The position numbers were made by a program, and so were the translations under genes. A model generated the notes under the pieces. The model saw only the letters and a program-made list of their open reading frames with translations. It searched no databases and had not been told where the DNA came from. A DNA stretch of 64,000 nucleotides. It comes from Bacteroidales bacterium. Its GTDB lineage: Bacteria > Bacteroidota > Bacteroidia > Bacteroidales > GCA-2711565. Every line of letters starts with the position of its first letter. Position 1 is the first letter of the stretch. Positions 1-12,382 of the stretch are shown in pieces. The stretch is taken from NCBI GenBank assembly GCA_028280405.1, contig JANQLW010000060.1:43435-107434 (forward strand), written 5' to 3'.

Positions 1-1349
1 TATTTTTCCAGATTTTGAAGTAATATATGTTTTATACGGGAAATCTGCTTTTTGTCAAAAATAAATTTTACACCCTGGCGTGATTTCAAATAGCGAATAC
101 TTTCCGATTGATCAATAAGGACAAGTACTTTTTCTTCTTTCATTTGTAAAGCATTCACAAAATAATCAACAGAGGTTAAATGAATCCTTTCATTTACTTT
201 GAATTCAATATAAGCCAAATTATCTTCAGCATATTTCTCTAATGCCTCAACCAGTTTTTCTGATTTTTTTTTATGATTTAAAGGAAGCGGATCAATTACT
301 ACTCCTCCACCAATAGTGGTATCTGAAGATGTGTTTCTTAAGATAAAGTGTTCTCCTTTGACAAAGTACCAATCTTCTTTTAAATAGATTTGAGCCACAC
401 GTTTTTCTTTGGATCCCTCAAAATCCTTATCCAGCAATTTAACCTGAACAGACATTTTATTGGTTCCAATTAACAAAATTGCATCAAAGCGCTTTGCATT
501 ATCTTTTATAGCTTCAAGCAAAGTAAGTTTAACATCTATTCTGGAACTTTTAGGTAAATCTGTTTTAGTTAAAATATCACCTAATTGAATGTCTCTTTTT
601 TTAATTCCTGTTATATTAATTGCAACTCTGGAACCTTGTTGGGCAGTATCAACGGTTTTTCCATGACGTTGAATTTGACGAATTCGCACTTCATTATCAT
701 TGGGTAAAAGTTTTATAACATCATTGGTACCTATAGCATCAGCTAAAATAGTACCTGTAGCGACTGCTCCGAATCCACTCACATTAAAAACCCGATCTAC
801 ATACATTCTGAAAAAGTCTTGTTTTTCTTTCAGAATAAGGTCATAATCTTCATCTTGCAAATACTCTTTTAACTCTTTTATCCCATCACCTCTTAAAGAA
901 GAAACCTGAAAGATGGGCTTATCCTCTAAAAAAGTACCTTTTACCAATTCTGAAACTTCCTCCGTACAAAGTTCCAGCATATCATCATCAACCATATCTT
1001 TTTTATTAATGACGACAATACCGTTTTTAATGCCAAGTAAGCTACATATTTTCAAGTGTTCAATGGTTTGAGGCATTACACCGTCATTAGCAGCTACAAT
1101 AAGCATTACAAAATCGATTCCCGACACTCCGGATATCATATTACTAATAAAACGATGATGGCCGGGAACATCGACAAAAGCAAGGTATTTATCATCTTTC
1201 AATGGCAAATAGGCAAACCCAAGATTGATTGTAATTCCACGTTTTTTTTCTTCGGGATGCGTATCGCAATCCATATTTGTGAGTGCTTTAATCAAACTTG
1301 TTTTCCCGTGGTCAATATGTCCTGCCGTACCGATTATAAAATGTTCCAT
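1..1349 (-). CDS. selB: Selenocysteine-specific translation elongation factor SelB (partial, C-terminus runs off the window start)
   Basis: Minus-strand reading from ATG at 1349: [95 protein letters not shown]; translation GTPase P-loop, DIPGH and NKKD motifs. Not in the ORF track because it is open at the edge. Confidence 0.93.
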
Positions 1350-1720: not shown

Positions 1721-2839
1721 TTATTTGCCTAGAAGTAAATAAATGTGTCCGTAATTTTTCATTGATTTAAAAAATTTCATCATAGCACGAGAATCCCTTT
1801 TCCCGTTCTCATCTTTAAATTGAGCCAAAAAGTCTTTTTTAAGATTATTATAATCTTTAAAATATTCGCCTTCTCTATATGCAATACTTGCACCTACCAA
1901 TAGATCTGTTTTTCCATCATTATTCCAATCAGTAGCACATATCCAATGCGCTCGTCCGGGCACATATTTTTTCCCCTTCTTATTTTTAACAATCGCAACA
2001 GGAGCGGCAAACTTTTCATTACCCATTCCTTTAAAATAACATAGTCCTACATCCTTAGAGTCAGGGTTATTACCATCTGTTGAAACGATATCCAATACTC
2101 CATCATTATCCCAATCCATAACAACAATAGTCGGATGAGTGGTTTTTAAAGGTTCTCCTTCTGTTGTATATAACAATTCTCTATTTCCAAATTTGAAATT
2201 CTCTTTGGTTCCTACATTTCTATTAAACCAAATATGGTCAAAGCCATAAGTAAAGAGGTCTAAGTCTCCATCATTATCAAAATCAACAAAATGGGGAGTA
2301 GCCTTATATTGTGGTGGAACCCCCTTCAATTTTTCCTGACCTTCTTTTAATTTAAGTGGCCCCTCTTCAATAATAACTCCTTTTTTAAATCCTTTTGAAC
2401 TGCCTTCAAACCAGGTAATATGATTTGGATAATATTTACCTGAAACCAAATCCATATATCCATCATTATTTAAATCCACAAACTGTGGTGTAAAACCAAT
2501 GCATCAGCCAGTTTCAACGAAAAGAGGATTTCCATCTATATCTTTTCCATAAAAGAAATCATCATTAAATTTTGGTTTACTATCCGATCCTATATTTAGA
2601 TAAACTCTGAATTTAGCTTTGGCTTCAAACTCTCCAACAATTAAATCTTTTTTCCCATCTTTATTCCAATCATAAACAGCAGGATGAGCATAACCATATG
2701 CTTCAATTTTTAAGGGACCTGACTCACCTTTTATAATTTGTGGTTTACCTAATTTGTTAATCTTCTTTTTTGCAGCATAAGTAGTTATACTAATGCAAAA
2801 CAAGGCTAATAAAAGCAATACATTTGTTTTTTTCATCAT
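1721..2839 (-). CDS. Putative selenoprotein: secreted FG-GAP/VCBS-repeat protein with in-frame UGA (Sec) at codon 112, Sec-Cys motif
   Basis: ORFs 2504-2839 and 1721-2479 are in the same frame, separated by one TGA at 2504-2506. Read-through gives ...GNPLFVETG-U-CIGFTPQFVDLNNDGYMDLV... Signal peptide at N-terminus and D-x-D-x-DG repeats on both sides of the TGA. Confidence 0.85.
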
Positions 2840-2907: not shown

Positions 2908-2923
2908 TCACCAAATAGGGTGA
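2908..2923. promoter_or_regulatory. Palindromic putative operator TCACC-N6-GGTGA upstream of the selenoprotein gene
   Basis: ggaTCACCaaatagGGTGA, 69 nt upstream of the start at 2839; a near-identical palindrome lies at 10750-10764. Confidence 0.45.
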
Positions 2924-3070
2924 AAGGTTCTATAATTTTTAATAAGACATTATAAAATTATAAAAAACCTTAAGTTTGAGAAAAAATATTGATCAAAATT
3001 TTAAAACTCAATTCGGATAGAGTCTAATTTTCAAGAATAACTATCAATTAACTCTCTGAATTGAAAGCTT

Positions 3071-3823
3071 CTAAACAATAATATCTGTTTGTTTTTTAAA
3101 TGAGATTAGTTCCTTATCGCAATCATTCAAACAATCTCCACAATTCGTACAATTTTGTTCCAGAGGTAAAGTATCCATGCTACATGACTTTCTACATTGA
3201 TTACAATATGTACAAGATTTCGCCTTTCTAATTTTGAAGATTGAAATTTTATTGAACAGCTCAAGAATTCCGCCGGTAGCACAGAAATAACGACACCAGA
3301 TATTAGGGATTAACAAACTAAAAACGATCAAGCCCGAAATTATTAAAGTTCTATATATCCACAAATTATCAGCATGTTGAAATGTCAATCCTACTGATTG
3401 AAAGAATTCACCTGTTCTTATAGGAATAGCCCAACGAGGATTACTTAATACAAACAGATAGATCAATGAAGCAGCCAGTACAATGTATTTTCCAGCAGAT
3501 AAATATTTATCAAGTGTTCTACCGATTTTTATTTTTATAAGTTTAAATTTTGCGAAGATATCGGATAATGTTCCGGCCGGACAAGCATATCCGCAAAAAG
3601 CACGGCCAAATATAATGGCACTTCCCAAAATTGCAATCCAAGTGGAAAGCCAAATTTTCTTACCCGGGCATTGTACAACAGGGCATGTTTCACAACTAAC
3701 ATAAGGGATTGCAAAAGGACAACGAAATATACCATAAAAAGCAAACTCCCCAAGAATAACCATAAAGACAGCCCGCATACTCCATCTTACTCTTTTAAAT
3801 ATAACAGCTACTTTAGTCATCAC
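3071..3823 (-). CDS. Membrane-bound 4Fe-4S ferredoxin-type protein (NapH/NosR-like)
   Basis: Hydrophobic segments, CGYACPAG, CRYFCATGG, CTYCNQCRKSC and CTNCGDCLNDC motifs. Confidence 0.75.
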   Translation of the reverse strand: MMTKVAVIFKRVRWSMRAVFMVILGEFAFYGIFRCPFAIPYVSCETCPVVQCPGKKIWLSTWIAILGSAIIFGRAFCGYACPAGTLSDIFAKFKLIKIKIGRTLDKYLSAGKYIVLAASLIYLFVLSNPRWAIPIRTGEFFQSVGLTFQHADNLWIYRTLIISGLIVFSLLIPNIWCRYFCATGGILELFNKISIFKIRKAKSCTYCNQCRKSCSMDTLPLEQNCTNCGDCLNDCDKELISFKKQTDIIV

Positions 3824-4670
3824 TTACTTTATATTTTTGGGTTAAACGTTTTCCTTCATCAGATATAGCAGGAATAAAACCTGCCTTTTCGAAATAATTT
3901 TGGCCTTCTTTTGATAAGATGAAGTCTACATATGCTACAGCTAACTCCATATCTTTAGCATACTTCATAATACCTATTGTAAAAGGAACAGGTACAGCAG
4001 GAATAAACTCTTCAGGTATATCCAATACCTCAACCTTCCCTTTCACATTTGATAAATGAACAATACGTTGTTCGACAATTCCAACATCGGCTTTTCCATC
4101 AATAACTTTATTTACATCCATTTGAACACAATCTCCTTTGTATTCAATATTTTTTGTTGCTTCTTTGATGATCCCGGATTTTTTAAGTATTCCCATAGTA
4201 GCTTTTCCTCCGGGAGGTGAAGCCTTAGGCGATAATGAAATCCGGACACCCGGGCGACTTAGATCTTTTATGCTTTGAATATTTGCAGGATTACCTTTGG
4301 GTGTGATTAAAATATACTTTGTAAAACATAAGGGTTTATAGTTAAGCATCAAGCCCTGTTTTTTTAACTTTTGGGCTAATGCCAGTACCCTGGGGGCAAA
4401 TACTTCTGTTTGTGCACCACCAAATAAAGATTTTCCAAGAGCTGCAGCAAAAGCCCCGGAATAATTTATAGATGCACCATAAATTTCTTCAAACCTTTTA
4501 TTAGCCGGCTCCATAGCTTCTGCCAGTCCTCCGCAGGACCATACTTTTAATTTACTATCTTGAAAACTAGAAGCCGGAATATTATTAGCTTGTACAGACC
4601 CCAAAGCAATGGAGCCCAATAAAGCCGTTCCCGAGCTTTTCAAAAAATTTCTTCTATCTGATTTTTTCAT
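3813..4670 (-). CDS. Tat-exported ModA/PstS-like substrate-binding protein
   Basis: Twin-arginine leader SDRRNFLKSSG; periplasmic binding protein type 2 pattern (KLKVWSCGGLAEAMEPANKRFEE...ILITPKGNPANIQSIKDL...VDFILSKEGQ). Confidence 0.75.
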   Translation of the reverse strand: MKKSDRRNFLKSSGTALLGSIALGSVQANNIPASSFQDSKLKVWSCGGLAEAMEPANKRFEEIYGASINYSGAFAAALGKSLFGGAQTEVFAPRVLALAQKLKKQGLMLNYKPLCFTKYILITPKGNPANIQSIKDLSRPGVRISLSPKASPPGGKATMGILKKSGIIKEATKNIEYKGDCVQMDVNKVIDGKADVGIVEQRIVHLSNVKGKVEVLDIPEEFIPAVPVPFTIGIMKYAKDMELAVAYVDFILSKEGQNYFEKAGFIPAISDEGKRLTQKYKVSDD

Positions 4671-4696
4671 AAGTTTTTAGTGTAAATGATTAATAA

Positions 4697-5536
4697 TTAT
4701 TCTTCCAGGCCGGGAATTCCAGCAGCATCAGCCCTGCATTGTTTGCAATTTGTAAATACGTTTATGTATTTACCGGCCTCAGCTTGCAATTCTTCAATCC
4801 TTGCAGTTGGGGGCCTGCTAATGTGTTTAAAATTACCACGTGGAATTACCGGCGTAATATTATGCGTAAAACATCCCAGTTCCGACATCATCTGAGAGAT
4901 CCTAATGATCTGATCATCATTAATCCCCGGAATTAAAATGCTATTTATTTTCACATGCATACCATAATTAATGGCCATTTCAATTCCATCAATTTGGTTC
5001 TTAAGTAAAATTTCGGCCATTTTTTTCCCTTGAAATCTTGATCCTTTTAGATTGATATATGAATAAATCTTTGAAATTACGTCTAAGTCTAAAGCACTCA
5101 CCGTAACACTTAAATGATGAATTCCTAATTCAACCAGTTCATCCATATAATCAGGTAGATTTAATCCGTTTGTACATAAGCATAACTTGATATCAGGATA
5201 AGCATTTCTGATCATTCTAAAAGTTTCGATTGTTTCCGGGTTGGCTAAGGGTTCTCCGGGCCCTGAGATTCCAACTACAGAATTTTCACCCCGATGACCC
5301 AGAAACTCTCCTGTTTTAATTAATGCCTCCAAAGGGGATAATAGTTTGTCAGCTAGACCCGGGCAGATATGATTGATGTTTGAAGGACAAATATTTCGTT
5401 CACAATAATTACATTTAATATTGCATTTTGGTGCAACCGGTAGATGTATTCTTGCAACTTTATGATGAGATTCATTACTCATGCACGGATGATCAATTGT
5501 TCTTCCATCTTTTATCAAAGGTTTACAATTCGTCAT
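4697..5536 (-). CDS. NifB-like radical SAM protein
   Basis: HPCMSNESHHKVARIHLPVAPKCNIKCNYCERNICPS radical SAM CxxxCxxC, GISGPGEPLANPETIETF, TNGLNLPDYMDEL, C-terminal TNCKQCRADAAG, all as in the NifB core. Confidence 0.85.
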   Translation of the reverse strand: MTNCKPLIKDGRTIDHPCMSNESHHKVARIHLPVAPKCNIKCNYCERNICPSNINHICPGLADKLLSPLEALIKTGEFLGHRGENSVVGISGPGEPLANPETIETFRMIRNAYPDIKLCLCTNGLNLPDYMDELVELGIHHLSVTVSALDLDVISKIYSYINLKGSRFQGKKMAEILLKNQIDGIEMAINYGMHVKINSILIPGINDDQIIRISQMMSELGCFTHNITPVIPRGNFKHISRPPTARIEELQAEAGKYINVFTNCKQCRADAAGIPGLEE

Positions 5537-5751
5537 AACTTTATAATTGTATCAAACTCTACATTATTATTTATTAAGAGATCATCAATATGCTCTTTAC
5601 TTTTATCAAAAAATTCAACACAATAACCGCAATCAGAACTTAGCTCACGCGGTACCGGAATCATTTTATGCTTTATATCACTTTCCTTTAAAACATCCGC
5701 TGCCCACATGGCTTGATTCGTAGAATAAAAAAGGATTATTTGTCGACTCAT
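5533..5751 (-). CDS. DUF3343 family protein (putative Se/S carrier)
   Basis: Short protein with DUF3343 pattern: LFYSTNQAMWAADVLKESDIKHKMIPVPRELSSDCGYCVEF. Confidence 0.8.
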   Translation of the reverse strand: MSRQIILFYSTNQAMWAADVLKESDIKHKMIPVPRELSSDCGYCVEFFDKSKEHIDDLLINNNVEFDTIIKL

Positions 5752-5770
5752 TGAAAAAAGTGTTTTGGTG

Positions 5771-6943
5771 TTAAAGTGTTTTAGTATTTATTTTCTTTGA
5801 AATTTCAGCTAATGCCATAGTGGCTTTATCTATTTCATCCTTTGTGTTAAAAATATTAAATCCAAAGCGGCATGTTCCATTAGGGAAAGTGCCCAATGTT
5901 TGATGGGCAAGCGGAGCACAATGTAAGCCTTGTCTGCAAGAAATTGCATATTTTTCAGACAAAACCTGAGCTAATTCCGATACGGAAATTCCTTTAATAA
6001 AGAATGAGCAAACATTTATACTCTTATCTGTATATCCTACAGTTTGAAATCCTTTAACATTACTTTTTGCACTTTCAACAAAATACTTTAAAAGATTCTT
6101 TTCATGTTGATATATGTTTTCAAGTCCGGTTTCATTGATAAAATCTAAGCCTGCTGACAATCCGGCGATACCGGCAATATTCATTGTTCCACTTTCAAAA
6201 CAATCAGGAAGAAAGCCGGGCTGGACAGTTTGATCAGATAAACTACCTGTACCACCCTGTTTTAAAGGTTTAATTCTTTTATAATCAAAATCATCAGCAA
6301 TTAATAAGCCTCCTACACCTTGTGGACCAAATAATGATTTATGGCCCGTAAATGCATACAAACTAATATTTGCTTTATTTACATTTAAAGGGACCACTCC
6401 TGCACTTTGTGCTCCATCTACAATAAGAATTAAATTATGTTTTTTGGCTAAAGCCCCAATTTCTGAGATTCGCTGTTCACAACTACATACATTAGAAACA
6501 TGATTAAATACAAAGGTTGTGGTTTTATCAGTAATTTCTCTTTCAATATCATTAACATCAACAACGCCATCAGCTTTTGCATGAACAATAGATAAAGTAA
6601 TTATTCCGCTACTTTTTAGCTCATTAAGTGGCCTGATCACACTATTATGTTCCATCGAAGAAGTAATCACATGATCGCCTTGCTTAACAACTCCTTTCAT
6701 CGCAAGATTTAAAGTATCCGTTGCATTATAGCCAAAAATGACATGCATCGGATTTTCCAATCCAAACATTTTCGCCAATTTTTTTCGGGTATTAAAAACA
6801 ATTTGCCCTGCTCCTATTGCAGCTTTATGGCCTCCTCTACCCGGGTTTGCTCCGATATTCATCAAATAATGATTTATTGCTTCAATAACACCGGGTGGCT
6901 TGGGAAATGAAGTGGCTGTATTGTCGAAATAGATTTGTTTCAT
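5771..6943 (-). CDS. Cysteine desulfurase / selenocysteine lyase family aminotransferase class V
   Basis: IYFDNTATSFPKP, GHKSLFGPQGVGGLL PLP-lysine region, SCRQGLHCAPLAHQTLGT. Confidence 0.88.
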   Translation of the reverse strand: MKQIYFDNTATSFPKPPGVIEAINHYLMNIGANPGRGGHKAAIGAGQIVFNTRKKLAKMFGLENPMHVIFGYNATDTLNLAMKGVVKQGDHVITSSMEHNSVIRPLNELKSSGIITLSIVHAKADGVVDVNDIEREITDKTTTFVFNHVSNVCSCEQRISEIGALAKKHNLILIVDGAQSAGVVPLNVNKANISLYAFTGHKSLFGPQGVGGLLIADDFDYKRIKPLKQGGTGSLSDQTVQPGFLPDCFESGTMNIAGIAGLSAGLDFINETGLENIYQHEKNLLKYFVESAKSNVKGFQTVGYTDKSINVCSFFIKGISVSELAQVLSEKYAISCRQGLHCAPLAHQTLGTFPNGTCRFGFNIFNTKDEIDKATMALAEISKKINTKTL

Positions 6944-7051
6944 AATTTTTATTTAAAATTCCGATGACTGAGCTTGTCGAAGTCCTATTTCTAATTCGAC
7001 ACACCTCTCGACAAGCTCAAGGACCCGTTTCGGCAAGCTCAAGGACCTGAA

Positions 7052-7288
7052 TTATCTATTAACTATAAAAGTTTTATAATCTTCAGTTTGAGAAACTTCG
7101 GCAGTCAGGTCGAATTGCTCTAGTGTACGTAGAATATTCTCACTTGCGGTTCCACCATCAACCAGAATTTCCAAAGAAGAGCTATCTTCTTTAATAGCCC
7201 TGCTTACTAACATTACAGGCTGAGGACATGAAAGCCCTCTTGTATCTATTTGTTTCATTTTATTATCTTTTTTAACGGGCTTGTCCAA
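7052..7288 (-). CDS. yedF: Sulfurtransferase TusA/SirA family, YedF-like selenium metabolism protein
   Basis: DTRGLSCPQPVMLVSRAI CPxP motif; located directly beside YedE. Confidence 0.8.
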   Translation of the reverse strand: MDKPVKKDNKMKQIDTRGLSCPQPVMLVSRAIKEDSSSLEILVDGGTASENILRTLEQFDLTAEVSQTEDYKTFIVNR

Positions 7289-7407
7289 AAAGTGTTAAAA
7301 AATTGATTTTTAAGTCAGGGCGTGAATTGTTAATTGATTAAATACATGCATTTTATCTTTTGAAGAATTTTGCAAGTAAATTCACACCCTGACTTTTTGG
7401 ACAGCCT
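7277..7407. repeat. MITE/REP-like hairpin element, copy 2 (gtcagggcgtgaatt ... ttcacaccctgac)
   Basis: Outer arms ggcttgtccaaaaag/ctttttggacagcc and inner arms gtcagggcgtgaatt/aattcacaccctgac. Confidence 0.78.
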
Positions 7408-7421
7408 CGTTGGGTTAATAT

Positions 7422-8486
7422 TTATTTATGTCTTTTAATCATAAAGAATCCAACTAATAAGCAGAATACAATACCTATGATCGTTGCATATTCACCATAA
7501 GGGCCTAATCCCTTAGGAGAACTTGACAGACCAAAGTTATGAGCAAAGCCAGCTCCAACGAGCATTCCAAGCACAAATACTCCGGAATCGGTATTTCCTT
7601 CGCCAGTCAATACAATTTGACGTCCCGGACACCCTCCAGCCAATACAAAAGCTAATCCTGAAAGTACCATACCTAAGAAATTCCAGATATGAAGGTTATG
7701 GGCAATCGGCTGGCCCTCAAATCCCATATTAAACTGACCAAGAATTAAGTTCATTACAAGGACTGTTACAAAAAATGCTGCAAGGCCCGTAAATAAGTGG
7801 AAGTTTCTAATGATAAAGATATCTCTTAAAGAGCCCATGGTACAAAAGCGGCTTCTTTGTGCAAGGTAACCAACGATTAGTCCCGCTCCCAAACTAATAA
7901 GCATAGGTGCATGCATAGCTCCCGGTCCTTTTGAACTAATCATAATTTTACCAAAATCAAAAGCAAACAGAAGAAATATTAACCCGAAAAAGCCCGGAAT
8001 AATGTAGCCTGATAATTTCCCTTCAGATGGCAATGCTCTACCCAGATTAAATCCTTTCTTAAGAAATAATGTTCCTATATAAATTCCTGTCGCCAATCCG
8101 GCAATTCCAAGGATTGCATTCAGATCTCCACCTGCTAATCTTAAAAAAGCTCTCCATGGACAACCCAAGAAAACCAATGCACCTATCATTGCAAAAGCTC
8201 CTAAAAAGAAACGAATGATGGCAGAGGAACCTCCTCTTGGTTTAAATTCTCCTTTAATAACAGAAATAATTAAAGCTCCGAAAAGTATTCCAATAATTTC
8301 AGGCCTTACATACTGAACAACACCGGCTTTATGTAAACCTATAGCACCTGCAATATCTCTTACAAAACAGGCCATACAAAATCCCATATTTGCAGGATTG
8401 CCCAGGTATTGTAAAAATGCAGCTATTCCACCGATAAAAACACCAGCGATAATAATGCCCCATTTTGATGCAAAAAAGTTTTTCAT
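7422..8486 (-). CDS. yedE: YedE family (YeeE/YedE) putative selenium transporter
   Basis: Polytopic protein with GCPWRAFLRLAGGDLNA, RSRFCTMGSLRD and LAGGCPGRQIVLTGEGN motifs. Confidence 0.85.
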   Translation of the reverse strand: MKNFFASKWGIIIAGVFIGGIAAFLQYLGNPANMGFCMACFVRDIAGAIGLHKAGVVQYVRPEIIGILFGALIISVIKGEFKPRGGSSAIIRFFLGAFAMIGALVFLGCPWRAFLRLAGGDLNAILGIAGLATGIYIGTLFLKKGFNLGRALPSEGKLSGYIIPGFFGLIFLLFAFDFGKIMISSKGPGAMHAPMLISLGAGLIVGYLAQRSRFCTMGSLRDIFIIRNFHLFTGLAAFFVTVLVMNLILGQFNMGFEGQPIAHNLHIWNFLGMVLSGLAFVLAGGCPGRQIVLTGEGNTDSGVFVLGMLVGAGFAHNFGLSSSPKGLGPYGEYATIIGIVFCLLVGFFMIKRHK

Positions 8487-8504
8487 AATTTTTAATTTTT
8501 TGTA

Positions 8505-8643
8505 ATGAGTTTATCTAAAAAGTAACCATTAAAATAACTGTCCTCTGTCATGCTGAACTTGTTTCAGCATCTAAACCAGCTATTAAGATGCTGAAACAAG
8601 TTCAGCATAACGGTGGTTGATCATACTTTTTAGATAAACTCAT
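8505..8643. repeat. Nested inverted-repeat element containing the dispersed CTGAACTTGTTTCAG motif
   Basis: Outer arms atgagtttatctaaaaagt/actttttagataaactcat and inner arms atgctgaacttgtttcagcatct/agatgctgaaacaagttcagcat. Confidence 0.78.
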
Positions 8644-8649
8644 CATGGA

Positions 8650-9627
8650 CTAAATTTTAATTTCTAAATTCATAAATATCCCCGTCATATATTTTTGAGC
8701 TGCATCCTTTGGATTCCATCCCTGATAGTTAGGAGCAATCTTAACACCTTTTACCGGAGCGTATTCCAGGCCGATGATCAATATACTACCATCTTTAGCC
8801 AAATTCCATTCCATGTCCATGGCATCAGAAGAACTCAGTTTATCATATCTTCCGAAGATTTTTACTTTTTTACTTGCTTTATATGTTGTGTGGAATGAAA
8901 AACCATCCAAATCTTTATCAGCTGCATTAGTTGTATTTAACTGTTTGTTGTATTCCAAGCCAAAACTGATATCACCGGTTTTGTAACCAGCAAATAATGC
9001 AAGTGATTGTTGGTTTACATTATGTTTTTCAATGAAATCATAATAAGCTCTTAATGTAAGAGCTTTGACAGGATTTACTGTGACTCCTAATCCTACTCTT
9101 AAACTTGAATCTGCAGCTAGTTTTTTATATCCTTCTCCATTACTTAAAATAAAGTCTGCACTAAAAGCTTTTGAGAATTTATAAGCTACTCTAACACCAA
9201 GATCTGCACTTGAATTAAATTTATGTTGATTCTGGAATGTTTTATAAATATATCTGTACCCCCATGCTTTTCTCTGAAGTTCAAACTGAGTAGTTCCTAT
9301 TAAACCAAAGTCTACTTTAAAACCATTTTGTTTATAAGTTAAAAATGCATGCTTTAACAAAGCCGTCATTTCCAATCCGCCGACTTTTGGGTTAGCCACA
9401 TCCAAAGTGATTTTGCCTGAAAAATGCTTACTAAAATTGTATCCATAACCAAAATATGCTCTTTTAATTTCAAATGCATTGGCATTTTCCCCATCAGAAA
9501 ATGAAGAATGGAAGTTTGAAAATATTTTCACATTCACTTTTCCATTTGGTTTAAAATCCTTATCTGCTGCATTAGCTTGAATTCCTGCAAACAATGCTAA
9601 TATTAATAAAATGCTAAGTTTTTTCAT
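8650..9627 (-). CDS. Outer-membrane porin-like beta-barrel
   Basis: Start MKKLSILLILALFAGIQANA (internal Met of the ORF track entry); alternating beta-strand pattern typical of porins, e.g. AYFGYGYNFSKHFSGKITLDV; C-terminal aromatic-poor MNLEIKI. Confidence 0.7.
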   Translation of the reverse strand: MKKLSILLILALFAGIQANAADKDFKPNGKVNVKIFSNFHSSFSDGENANAFEIKRAYFGYGYNFSKHFSGKITLDVANPKVGGLEMTALLKHAFLTYKQNGFKVDFGLIGTTQFELQRKAWGYRYIYKTFQNQHKFNSSADLGVRVAYKFSKAFSADFILSNGEGYKKLAADSSLRVGLGVTVNPVKALTLRAYYDFIEKHNVNQQSLALFAGYKTGDISFGLEYNKQLNTTNAADKDLDGFSFHTTYKASKKVKIFGRYDKLSSSDAMDMEWNLAKDGSILIIGLEYAPVKGVKIAPNYQGWNPKDAAQKYMTGIFMNLEIKI

Positions 9628-9637
9628 TGTCTTTGTA

Positions 9638-10606
9638 TTATTGCTGATTAGTTTTTTTGTAATTAAATGATTTTTCGACTTTATACTCCTTACCATTTAC
9701 TAAACAGTATGGATAAATAAAGAAGTTCAGGGTTTGGATATTTTTACTTCCCTTAACTTCAATATCTCTTCCCATTGTAAACTGAATACGGTCATAATCC
9801 AAATTTCCAAATAAGTATTCTTTTTTATGAGGATGTTTGCATGCTTCAGAAGCATCAACAGGAATCCAGCCTTTTCCATCAATGTAGAATTCAGCCCAAC
9901 AGTGATAACCCTTAACTTTGCTTTCTTTTACATTTTCAGGAAATGGAAATCCCATTGCAAAACGAGCAGGAATATCAATGGAACGGCACATGGCAATAAA
10001 TAAAGAATGAAAGTCAGTACAATTACCTCTACGCTCATCACAAACAAATATTACATCACCATTACCCCAGCCTTCACCGCTTTTATCATATTTTACACAA
10101 GAAACAATATGATCATAAATAGCTTTTGCCTGATTAAACTTTCCATTTACTCCTTTAATAACATCTTGAGCCTCTTTACGAATTTCATCTGTTATTAATA
10201 CTTTGGAACTTTCACCTAAATACATCTCAGCATTTTTCAATTTAGTTGCTTTGCCTCCATTTCTTTCGAAACGACTGGCTTTTACAGTTAGGTTTACATA
10301 ACCTCCTTTTTTAGCATCGGATTTTAGGTATAAGTATTTATTATTAAATTGTTTGTCCTTTTTAATTGAATATTTATAGTCTGTTTCAATACTAACATCA
10401 TTAATTTTTTGATAATTATCAGATTGAGGAATGGGAATCCATAATTCCATTGTATTTGATTGCCCCTCAAGTTGAGGAATTTTTACTTTATATGTAAATT
10501 CAAAATTATTAGATTCAACATTTGATTTTTTGGGACTAATAGCATAGCTATTCATCGTAATTAGTGCAACAGCACAAATAGTAAATACAGTTTTAATAGT
10601 TTTCAT
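9638..10606 (-). CDS. Transglutaminase-like superfamily protein, secreted
   Basis: Signal peptide; catalytic-triad context RRGNCTDFHSLFIAMCRSIDIPARFAMGF...GYHCWAEFYIDGKGWIPVDAS. Confidence 0.85.
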   Translation of the reverse strand: MKTIKTVFTICAVALITMNSYAISPKKSNVESNNFEFTYKVKIPQLEGQSNTMELWIPIPQSDNYQKINDVSIETDYKYSIKKDKQFNNKYLYLKSDAKKGGYVNLTVKASRFERNGGKATKLKNAEMYLGESSKVLITDEIRKEAQDVIKGVNGKFNQAKAIYDHIVSCVKYDKSGEGWGNGDVIFVCDERRGNCTDFHSLFIAMCRSIDIPARFAMGFPFPENVKESKVKGYHCWAEFYIDGKGWIPVDASEACKHPHKKEYLFGNLDYDRIQFTMGRDIEVKGSKNIQTLNFFIYPYCLVNGKEYKVEKSFNYKKTNQQ

Positions 10607-10850: not shown

Positions 10851-12260
10851 CTAAAACACTTTTGTGTAAGCTTCCCTTACAATATTAGCAACTTCTTCTA
10901 TCCTATTTTCCTGAAGAGTCAAAACATCAAGATAAATATATCCACTCTTCAAATTCGTTAATATGGGCGTATCATGATTGAGCAATTCATGGAACAATTT
11001 CTTTGCTTTACCTTCCTGGCGTTCTTTTTTCTCTTTAAATTCAAGTTTTACAGAATAACTATCGATTTCAAGATCAGGAAGTGTACCTCCACCGTATTGG
11101 CCTTTACTTTTTGCAATACTGGATTCAATATTGAATTTTTCTAGAGATGATCTCAATTTTTCAGCTGTTTCTGATAAAAGCTCATCTGTCTTATTCAGCA
11201 TATTAAACAATGGATTGTATTTAAACAATTTCTCATCATTCAAATAATAACTGCAAGCTGTTTCCAATATCGTCAAAGTTGTTTTACAAACCCTTAAAGC
11301 ACGCATCATAGGATGCTTACGTAAAACATCAATATATTTCTTCTTACCTGCAATAATACCGGCCTGGGGACCACCCAATAACTTATCGCCACTAAAACAG
11401 ACGATATCTATTCCCTCTGCAATGGCCTGCTTCACATCCGGTTCATTTTTAAGTGCTTTTTCATCTACCTTTCGCAATAAACCTGAACCAATATCATATA
11501 CAAATGGGATATCTTGTTTTTTACTCAGCTTAACCAGCTCATCAATTTCAGCTTCATGAGTAAAGCCCTTTATCACATAATTGGATTTATGAGCCTTGAG
11601 AAACATGGCTGTATTCTCGGTAATGGCATTTTTATAATCATCAACTTTAGTCTTATTGGTAGTACCTACCTCAATCATTTTACAGCCGGAGGCAGCCATG
11701 ATATCAGGAACACGGAAGGAACCTCCTATTTCAATTAATTCGCCCCTGGAAATAATTACTTCTTTATCTCGTGCAAATGTTCTCAGAACAAACATTACTG
11801 CAGCGGCATTATTATTCACAACTAAAACATCTTCAGCACCTGTCAAAAATTTCAGAATTTCAGAAGCATGAACATTGCGTTGTCCTCGAGCTCCTTTTTC
11901 AAGATTAAATTCAAGATTATTATAACCAACTAAAACTTCAGAAATACTTTTTACCATTTCTTCACCTAAAGGGGCTCTTCCAAGATTGGTATGCAAAACG
12001 ATACCGGATGCATTGATTACAGGACATAAACTACGATCACCAACTTTCTTGGTTAATTTAGTAATACGAGCAATAATTATTTCATCATTAGGAAATGGTT
12101 TATCACTAAGAATATCTTGTCGGAATGTGGAAATGGTTTCCCTGCAGGCGTGTTTCACAAGGCTTTCTCCATAAAGAGCAATTAACTCTTTTACTTGTGG
12201 CTGACAAAGGAGTTTGTCAATACCCGGAAGATTTTTTAAAGCTTGTTTCTTTAAATCCAT
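10851..12260 (-). CDS. selA: L-seryl-tRNA(Sec) selenium transferase
   Basis: CPVINASGIVLHTNLGRAPLGEEMVKSI, SGDKLLGGPQAGIIAGKKKYIDVLRKHPMMRALRVCK: SelA hallmarks. Confidence 0.97.
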   Translation of the reverse strand: MDLKKQALKNLPGIDKLLCQPQVKELIALYGESLVKHACRETISTFRQDILSDKPFPNDEIIIARITKLTKKVGDRSLCPVINASGIVLHTNLGRAPLGEEMVKSISEVLVGYNNLEFNLEKGARGQRNVHASEILKFLTGAEDVLVVNNNAAAVMFVLRTFARDKEVIISRGELIEIGGSFRVPDIMAASGCKMIEVGTTNKTKVDDYKNAITENTAMFLKAHKSNYVIKGFTHEAEIDELVKLSKKQDIPFVYDIGSGLLRKVDEKALKNEPDVKQAIAEGIDIVCFSGDKLLGGPQAGIIAGKKKYIDVLRKHPMMRALRVCKTTLTILETACSYYLNDEKLFKYNPLFNMLNKTDELLSETAEKLRSSLEKFNIESSIAKSKGQYGGGTLPDLEIDSYSVKLEFKEKKERQEGKAKKLFHELLNHDTPILTNLKSGYIYLDVLTLQENRIEEVANIVREAYTKVF

Positions 12261-12288: not shown

Positions 12289-12382
12289 GCAGAGAGGGCA
12301 GGGATCGAACCTGCCACAGTAAGTTTTATCCGTCTGTTACTGGTTTTGAAGACCAGATGAAACACCAGTTTCGTCCTCTCTG
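12289..12382 (-). tRNA. selC: tRNA-Sec (UCA anticodon)
   Basis: Minus strand: CAGAGAGG acceptor arm (8 bp with CCTCTCTG), CTGGT-CTTCAAA-ACCAG anticodon arm with TCA anticodon, long variable arm, GGTTCGATCCC T-loop. About 94 nt, immediately upstream of selA. Confidence 0.93.

Follow-up and report, generated by a model that had tools for sequence, protein, structure and literature searches.

In the literature, NifB and its product are assigned to diazotrophs (PMC5601070) or, more recently, to the nitrogenase-like methylthio-alkane reductases (MarB with MarHDK; PMC12552129). Separately, the genes for YedE, TusA, a desulfurase, and DUF3343 have already been described together as a selenium cluster (Lin et al. 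2015, PMC5322559). Both themes meet in a 64,000-nucleotide stretch of DNA from a Bacteroidales bacterium (GenBank assembly GCA_028280405.1, contig JANQLW010000060.1, positions 43,435 to 107,434 of the forward strand), hereafter called the window. Here, a row of selenium genes also includes genes for a NifB-like radical S-adenosylmethionine (rSAM) protein, a substrate-binding protein (SBP) with a signal for twin-arginine translocation (Tat), and a NapH-like membrane protein. The original prediction for this locus was a selenium uptake route running from the outer membrane to SelA. In our analysis the NifB-like, SBP, and NapH-like proteins, which we refer to as the module, proved to be a conserved set that we could match to no described system, and we consider this set of greater interest than the uptake route.

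The window resembles the described selenium cluster in encoding a YedE equivalog, a TusA-domain carrier, a TIGR01977/SclA-like enzyme, and DUF3343, here beside selA and selB; it differs in its TusA-only "YedF" and in a lyase that falls below the SclA cutoff, and its NifB-like, Tat-exported SBP, NapH-like, porin, and transglutaminase genes are extras not described in that cluster (PMC5322559). With NifB cofactor assembly and the methylthio-alkane reductases (PMC12552129), the module shares the NifB fold, the rSAM motif, and the K-cluster ligands, as well as the idea of a NifB-type cluster outside N2 fixation. It differs from them in having no NifDK-family client in five genomes, including its own: the proposed client of the module NifB is a periplasmic binding-protein fold, whereas the NifB and Mar systems use a NifDK scaffold.

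Conservation of the NifB-SBP-NapH set

A first scan with the window SBP against 85,488 species genomes yielded one relative, 58% identical, in a Deltaproteobacteria metagenome-assembled genome (MAG). There, a 16-kb contig carries porin, NifB-like, SBP, and NapH-like genes in that order, along with genes for YedF, a 2-hydroxyacyl-CoA-dehydratase-type protein with an activase, and SelD; YedE is also encoded in that genome. A profile built from the two SBPs was then run on 398 genomes from the phylum of this MAG (the second phylum), which produced 15 orthologs at 1e-97 or below, with the next match at 1e-26. Their neighborhoods were annotated by comparison with the window proteins, giving 16 loci with the window included. 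The 16 SBPs form one clade (support 100/99). At every locus the SBP gene directly adjoins the NapH-like gene, with an overlap of a few bases, and at 11 of the 16 a NifB-like gene is next to them; the three genes recur in this way with 33-58% identity. No paper describing the SBP-NapH-NifB set was found among the open-access literature. The module is rare in its own phylum, where a NifB search of 399 genomes returned, outside the window's own genome, only longer NifBs (mostly >420 aa) or fragments. Stand-alone NifB was rejected as a marker of the module, because short NifBs without the SBP occur in other genomes of the second phylum.

This recurrence bears on the simplest explanation of the locus, chance juxtaposition, under which an ordinary selenium locus would carry a molybdate-type SBP, NapH, and a NifB remnant as passengers. 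Consistent with that idea, the SBP scores near, albeit below, the ModA cutoff (59.6 vs 62.5), and no other genome in the order sample described below has YedE or the transglutaminase. However, a triad that stays together in 11 of 16 genomes, at 33-58% identity and with invariant cysteines, conserved ligands, and overlapping reading frames, is not a set of passengers. Chance is thus already refuted for the triad and survives only for its position beside the selenium genes; overall, we consider this explanation very unlikely.

Apparent dependence of the module on NifB

The window NifB-like protein scores below the TIGR01290 equivalog cutoff (275.9 vs 343.65 bits), and its match spans positions 10-277 of this 441-position model, whose C-terminal part stand-alone NifBs lack. 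The rSAM CxxxCxxC triad (C38/C42/C45, window numbering) is invariant in all 11 module copies, and the K-cluster ligands C18, H31, C119, C264, and C267, which are described for NifB (PMC9692996), are intact in all of them.

SBP and NapH were found only in genomes that encode some NifB (16 of 16 examined). Within the second phylum, NifB is present in all 15 module genomes but in only 94 of 383 others (p = 1.7e-9; in this and our other genome-level tests, related genomes count as independent observations). Five genomes, namely that of the window (G000 among our genome handles) and G754, G755, G801, and G747, encode no PF00148 (NifDK-family) protein, and their sole NifB is that of the module; in G545 and G820, a weak nitrogenase-like pair is all there is. 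Conversely, the modules of G877, G795, G932, G655, and G882 have no NifB of their own, and each of these genomes has exactly one NifB, encoded beside NifDK/EN-type genes. Thus, the module NifB is missing in five of nine genomes with a nif cluster versus none of seven without full nif (Fisher p = 0.029).

Phylogenetic analysis places the NifBs of the window, G820, and G545, all encoded upstream of the SBP, in one clade (100/99). Seven other module NifBs, encoded downstream of the SBP, form a second clade, and that of G747 stands apart; the nif-cluster NifBs of module genomes branch elsewhere. The tree thus indicates that NifB was recruited at least twice, to different sides of the SBP. Because different NifBs were repeatedly recruited, and because the module copy is absent only where another NifB exists, we infer that SBP and NapH need the product of NifB. 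Tat export serves proteins that fold with their cofactor in the cytoplasm, and so the export signal of the SBP fits this idea. In G754, one of the genomes without a NifDK-family protein, a NifX/NafY-family (PF02579) protein is encoded 2 kb from the module (L099:5187-5597, minus strand).

The SBP and NapH-like proteins

The twin arginines of the Tat signal and three cysteines, Cys46, Cys115, and Cys181, are invariant in all 16 SBPs. The window SBP has no other cysteines, and all three are absent from the five nearest non-module SBPs. By sequence, the SBP has the fold of the ModA/PEB3 family of solute-binding proteins (2h5y, 4kd5, 9wgd, PEB3). In alignments, Cys46 maps to the first of the ModA ligand loops, and Cys181 lies next to the loop containing E. 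coli Val152. The molybdate-binding serines S12 and S39 of E. coli ModA align with Gly48 and Ala75, which are invariant in the orthologs; the putative oxyanion-binding serine positions are therefore replaced. Beyond these replacements, the SBP differs from ModA/PEB3 proteins in its Tat signal, its three invariant cysteines, its fixed partner NapH, and its lack of ABC partners: no permease or ATPase was found in the window operon, and the recurrent partners at the other loci are the NapH-like and NifB-like proteins. The "selenocysteine-assisted organometal" (Sao) transporters also place a binding protein in a selenium context (PMC13188914), but the SBPs of Sao systems are themselves selenoproteins and work with ABC partners, whereas the window SBP has cysteines, lacks a UGA, and was matched by none of the Sao models.

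Sixteen cysteines of the NapH-like protein are invariant. They lie in a pair of CxxxC motifs, in a 2x[4Fe-4S] domain, and in a four-cysteine loop (C35, C44, C47, C52) that follows the first membrane helix and is predicted from hydropathy and charge to face the periplasm. It shares the two CxxxC motifs and the C-terminal 2x[4Fe-4S] domain with the ferredoxin-type membrane proteins NapH, MauN, and NosR, but scores far below the NapH model cutoffs (59.6 vs 234), has the additional loop, is paired with the SBP, and has no NapG or NapC that we could see.

The selenium locus of the window

The module lies within the following row of features, all on the minus strand and listed from upstream to downstream:

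12290..12382, minus strand: tRNA-Sec (Rfam RF01852, 60.2 bits, and ARAGORN)
10851..12260, minus strand: selA, selenocysteine synthase, 469 aa (from the ORF translation and its position behind tRNA-Sec, without a family scan)
9638..10606, minus strand: transglutaminase-like periplasmic protein with signal peptide, 322 aa (PF01841, 5.7e-29)
about 8650..9627, minus strand: outer-membrane porin-like protein (PF13609, 3e-7)
7422..8486, minus strand: YedE-family putative selenium transporter (TIGR04112, 485.9 bits, cutoff 200)
about 7052..7258, minus strand: TusA-like carrier, a short "YedF" (PF01206, 9e-13)
5771..6943, minus strand: cysteine desulfurase/selenocysteine lyase-like enzyme of TIGR01977 type (437.8 bits, cutoff 377)
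5533..5751, minus strand: DUF3343 Se/S carrier-like protein (PF11823, 1.8e-20)
4697..5536, minus strand: NifB-like rSAM protein, stand-alone domain (TIGR01290, 275.9 bits; PDB 6y1x NifB, 3.5e-72)
3813..4670, minus strand: Tat-exported ModA/PEB3-fold binding protein, the SBP (PF13531, 7.6e-47)
3071..3823, minus strand: NapH-like polytopic 4Fe-4S membrane protein (PF12801 and NapH models)
1721..2839, minus strand: secreted VCBS/FG-GAP selenoprotein with UGA at 2506-2504 (PF13517, 7.9e-22 across the UGA)
1..1349, minus strand: selB, running past the window edge (GTPase start in the sequence; homologous to the ORF that ends locus L107)

Every gene named in the original prediction is present on this strand and in the order given there. 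Tight packing is confined to the five genes from the desulfurase to the NapH-like gene (desulfurase-DUF3343, 19 bp; DUF3343-NifB-like, -4 bp; NifB-like-SBP, 26 bp; SBP-NapH-like, -11 or -8 bp), whereas upstream the gaps are 163 bp (porin-YedE), 163 bp (YedE-TusA), and 108 bp (TusA-desulfurase). The transglutaminase and porin genes form a separate pair, with 10 bp between them and 163 bp to YedE; because the listed porin ATG at 9696 overlaps the preceding gene, we prefer the start at 9627, which begins a signal peptide. Several transcription units upstream of the desulfurase are possible. No terminator-like sites were found in the upstream intergenic gaps, and a search of the gaps for the Bacteroidetes promoter pattern gave nothing convincing. 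The row is bracketed by selA and tRNA-Sec upstream and by the UGA-containing selenoprotein gene and selB downstream, with 231 bp between the NapH-like and selenoprotein genes.

The families that had been called selenium-associated (YedE, YedF, DUF3343, and the lyase) do correspond to the known cluster (Lin et al. 2015, PMC5322559), and two of the labels need adjusting. "YedF" is only the TusA half of the protein, without DsrE (TIGR03527, 42.4 bits against a cutoff of 110), and the "selenocysteine lyase" passes TIGR01977 as a desulfurase but not the SclA model (NF040779, 343 vs 525). YedE itself is far above its cutoff. As had been noted, selD lies outside the window: it is on another contig (G000:C51:89201-90118; L094:9259-10221; 443 bits), so that with tRNA-Sec the genome has selenocysteine machinery. 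This selD is itself a selenoprotein gene with one in-frame TGA, as in most second-phylum genomes tested.

The selenoprotein downstream of the module has its in-frame UGA within the motif ETGUCIGF. A text search of a 2026 review of the prokaryotic selenoproteome (PMC13188914) found no VCBS, FG-GAP, or propeller family, and the protein may represent an unlisted selenoprotein family. A bacterial selenocysteine insertion sequence (SECIS) after the UGA is unsupported by folding energy (z +0.9); a small GU-loop hairpin does follow the UGA at the usual distance.

Among 149 genomes of the order, that of the window is the only one with YedE over the cutoff and the only one with a full-length transglutaminase; three others have partial matches inside longer proteins, and a genome of the same genus (G118) has neither YedE nor the transglutaminase. 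Given the rarity of YedE, the transglutaminase, and stand-alone NifB in this lineage, the whole window set looks to have been acquired together.

Selenium genes and other neighbors across loci

YedE is present in 12 of the 15 module genomes of the second phylum versus 169 of 383 others (p = 0.006). YedE or YedF lies within ~10 kb of the module at three of the 15 loci, for which the chance probability is about 5e-4. Counting YedE, YedF, double-cubane, selB, and selD, a recognized selenium-related gene is near the module at six: G938 has YedE and TusA; G755 has YedF and two double-cubane reductases (NF040772, scoring about 470 bits where scanned); G747 has a double-cubane homolog, an activase, and a transglutaminase; G801 has a double-cubane homolog; G545 has YedF, a double-cubane homolog, and selD; and G932 has a selB-like gene with formate dehydrogenase-type genes. 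Dehydratase and activase genes are listed among the neighbors of selenium loci (PMC5322559), and double-cubane proteins have been tied to such loci (PMC10418091). We conclude that the link between the module and selenium is real but of moderate strength, and it is not exclusive.

The outer genes of the window fare differently. A full-length transglutaminase relative is encoded directly upstream of the SBP in G747 (26% over 324 aa), and G877 has a copy 3 kb from the SBP (L097:4172-4900, minus strand; 52% to the G747 copy). The in-frame stop in the latter reflects a pseudogene or an assembly error. An outer-membrane barrel is encoded directly upstream of the module at four of the 15 other loci (G820, G795, G932, and G545), where it is related to an Alginate_exp (PF13372) protein; homology of the window porin to these porins was tested and rejected. 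Thus, of the parts proposed for an uptake route, the transglutaminase recurs beside the module, and within the order its full-length copy occurs only in the sole YedE-bearing genome, the opposite of the distribution that was to count against it; the porin is not a conserved selenium porin, since the one found elsewhere is unrelated. It is reasonable to place the transglutaminase in the same process as the module.

These data can be set against the uptake route in its fullest form, a relay for selenium (or sulfur) in which the porin admits the element, a transglutaminase modifies the periplasm, the SBP cysteines capture selenium, NapH releases it, YedE imports it, and TusA and DUF3343 pass it to SelD, with NifB ancillary. 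The contiguity of selenium-associated YedE, TusA, desulfurase, and DUF3343 genes in the window, the YedE or YedF genes near the module in G938, G755, and G545, and the distribution of the transglutaminase all favor such a relay; three cysteines are able to bind selenium species, and a dedicated high-affinity selenium transporter is still unknown in prokaryotes (PMC13188914). However, it accounts for neither the tight dependence on NifB nor Tat export, nine of the 15 other loci have no recognized selenium gene nearby, and the porin is not conserved. The SBP in particular does not resemble an uptake receptor, given that it lacks ABC partners, carries a signal for Tat instead of Sec, has three invariant cysteines, and is linked to NapH and NifB, and a relay to SelA leaves the most informative gene of the cluster, the NifB-like one, unexplained. 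We regard the relay as rather unlikely.

A different function is suggested by the remaining neighbors. FdhA/HdrA or HdrA genes flank the module in G877, G842, G932, and G795, and together with the double-cubane reductases of G755 and the homologs in G801, G747, and G545 they could point to a redox role for the module in low-potential anaerobic metabolism (formate dehydrogenase/HdrA, double-cubane proteins), with a tie to selenium only because these partners are selenoproteins or lie next to selenium genes. Against this, the window has a full selenium set around the module and no double-cubane or activase gene, and double-cubane proteins are themselves among those tied to selenium loci; this alternative strikes us as unlikely. 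At the level of single loci, HdrA-type genes flank L097, L098, L106, and L107, some with formate dehydrogenase-type and FlpD/MvhD genes, and in L107 a selB-like gene follows. Double-cubane-type genes lie beside the module in L100 (confirmed with NF040772) and in L103, L104, and L110 (homologs), all from genomes without full nif, and none was seen beside the module in nif-bearing genomes; this pattern may reflect phylogeny or a functional alternative.

Proposed mechanism

The reading that we favor, tentatively and with somewhat less than even confidence, is that the window holds a selenium-utilization island (selA, tRNA-Sec, YedE, TusA, desulfurase, DUF3343, selenoprotein, selB) into which the module was inserted, and that the module yields a redox protein that works in the periplasm and holds a cluster of the NifB type. 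From what is known of their families, the desulfurase, DUF3343, and TusA would mobilize sulfur or selenium. Judging by its ligands, the NifB-like enzyme would build an 8Fe iron-sulfur cluster of the NifB-co type, which would be loaded in the cytoplasm onto the three SBP cysteines. The folded holo-SBP would then be exported by Tat, whose signal is present, and receive electrons across the membrane from the NapH-like protein via its ferredoxin domain and periplasm-facing cysteines. The holo-SBP could act as a periplasmic reductase or carrier. Its substrate might be a small reducible selenium or sulfur species, such as selenite/Se(0) or a methylated selenide or sulfide, and a selenide-level species so released might be taken up by YedE and handed to TusA, DUF3343, and SelD; the porin and transglutaminase may take part in this process at the outer membrane and in the periplasm. 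Such chemistry has precedent, because L-cluster proteins reduce N2 without ATP when fed by ferredoxin (PMC13245594), and because the methylthio-alkane reductases, which are nitrogenase-like, cleave C-S bonds with a [Fe8S9C] cluster (PMC12552129). The more specific proposal, a use of NifB independent of nitrogenase in which a carbide/8Fe cluster sits on a Tat-exported three-cysteine SBP of a fold unrelated to NifDK and is driven by the NapH-like protein for selenium (or sulfur) acquisition, is one that we put forward as possible but doubtful.

Several observations weigh against the reading that we favor. Nine of the 15 other modules have no recognized selenium gene within ~10 kb, four have the FdhA/HdrA or HdrA neighbors described above, and co-occurrence with selD was discarded as uninformative because nearly every genome of the second phylum has selD (50 of 55 controls, 65 of 70 genomes). 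The "plug" glutamate of NifB, present in most module NifBs, is lacking from the copies of the window, G820, and G545. The NifB-less modules amount to about three lineages or events, and relatedness among genomes likewise bears on the genome-level p values. As for the SBP, an AlphaFold2 model from a two-sequence input reached a pLDDT of only 34.6; it is from the alignment to ModA/PEB3 that the three cysteines are predicted to come together in the cleft, and they could equally bind a plain [4Fe-4S] cluster, Cu(I), As(III), or a selenotrisulfide.

Significance

The recurrence of the module in distant bacteria, several of which have no nitrogenase gene, hints at an undescribed use of a nitrogenase-type cluster outside the cytoplasm. 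If this is true, a conserved NifB partner in genomes without a NifDK-family protein, belonging neither to nitrogen fixation nor to the methylthio-alkane reductases, would represent a second branch of nitrogenase-cofactor biology, with the cluster placed beyond the cytoplasm. For selenium metabolism, YedE together with a cysteine-bearing exported protein, an electron donor in the membrane, and a transglutaminase is a concrete candidate for the periplasmic step of selenium uptake.

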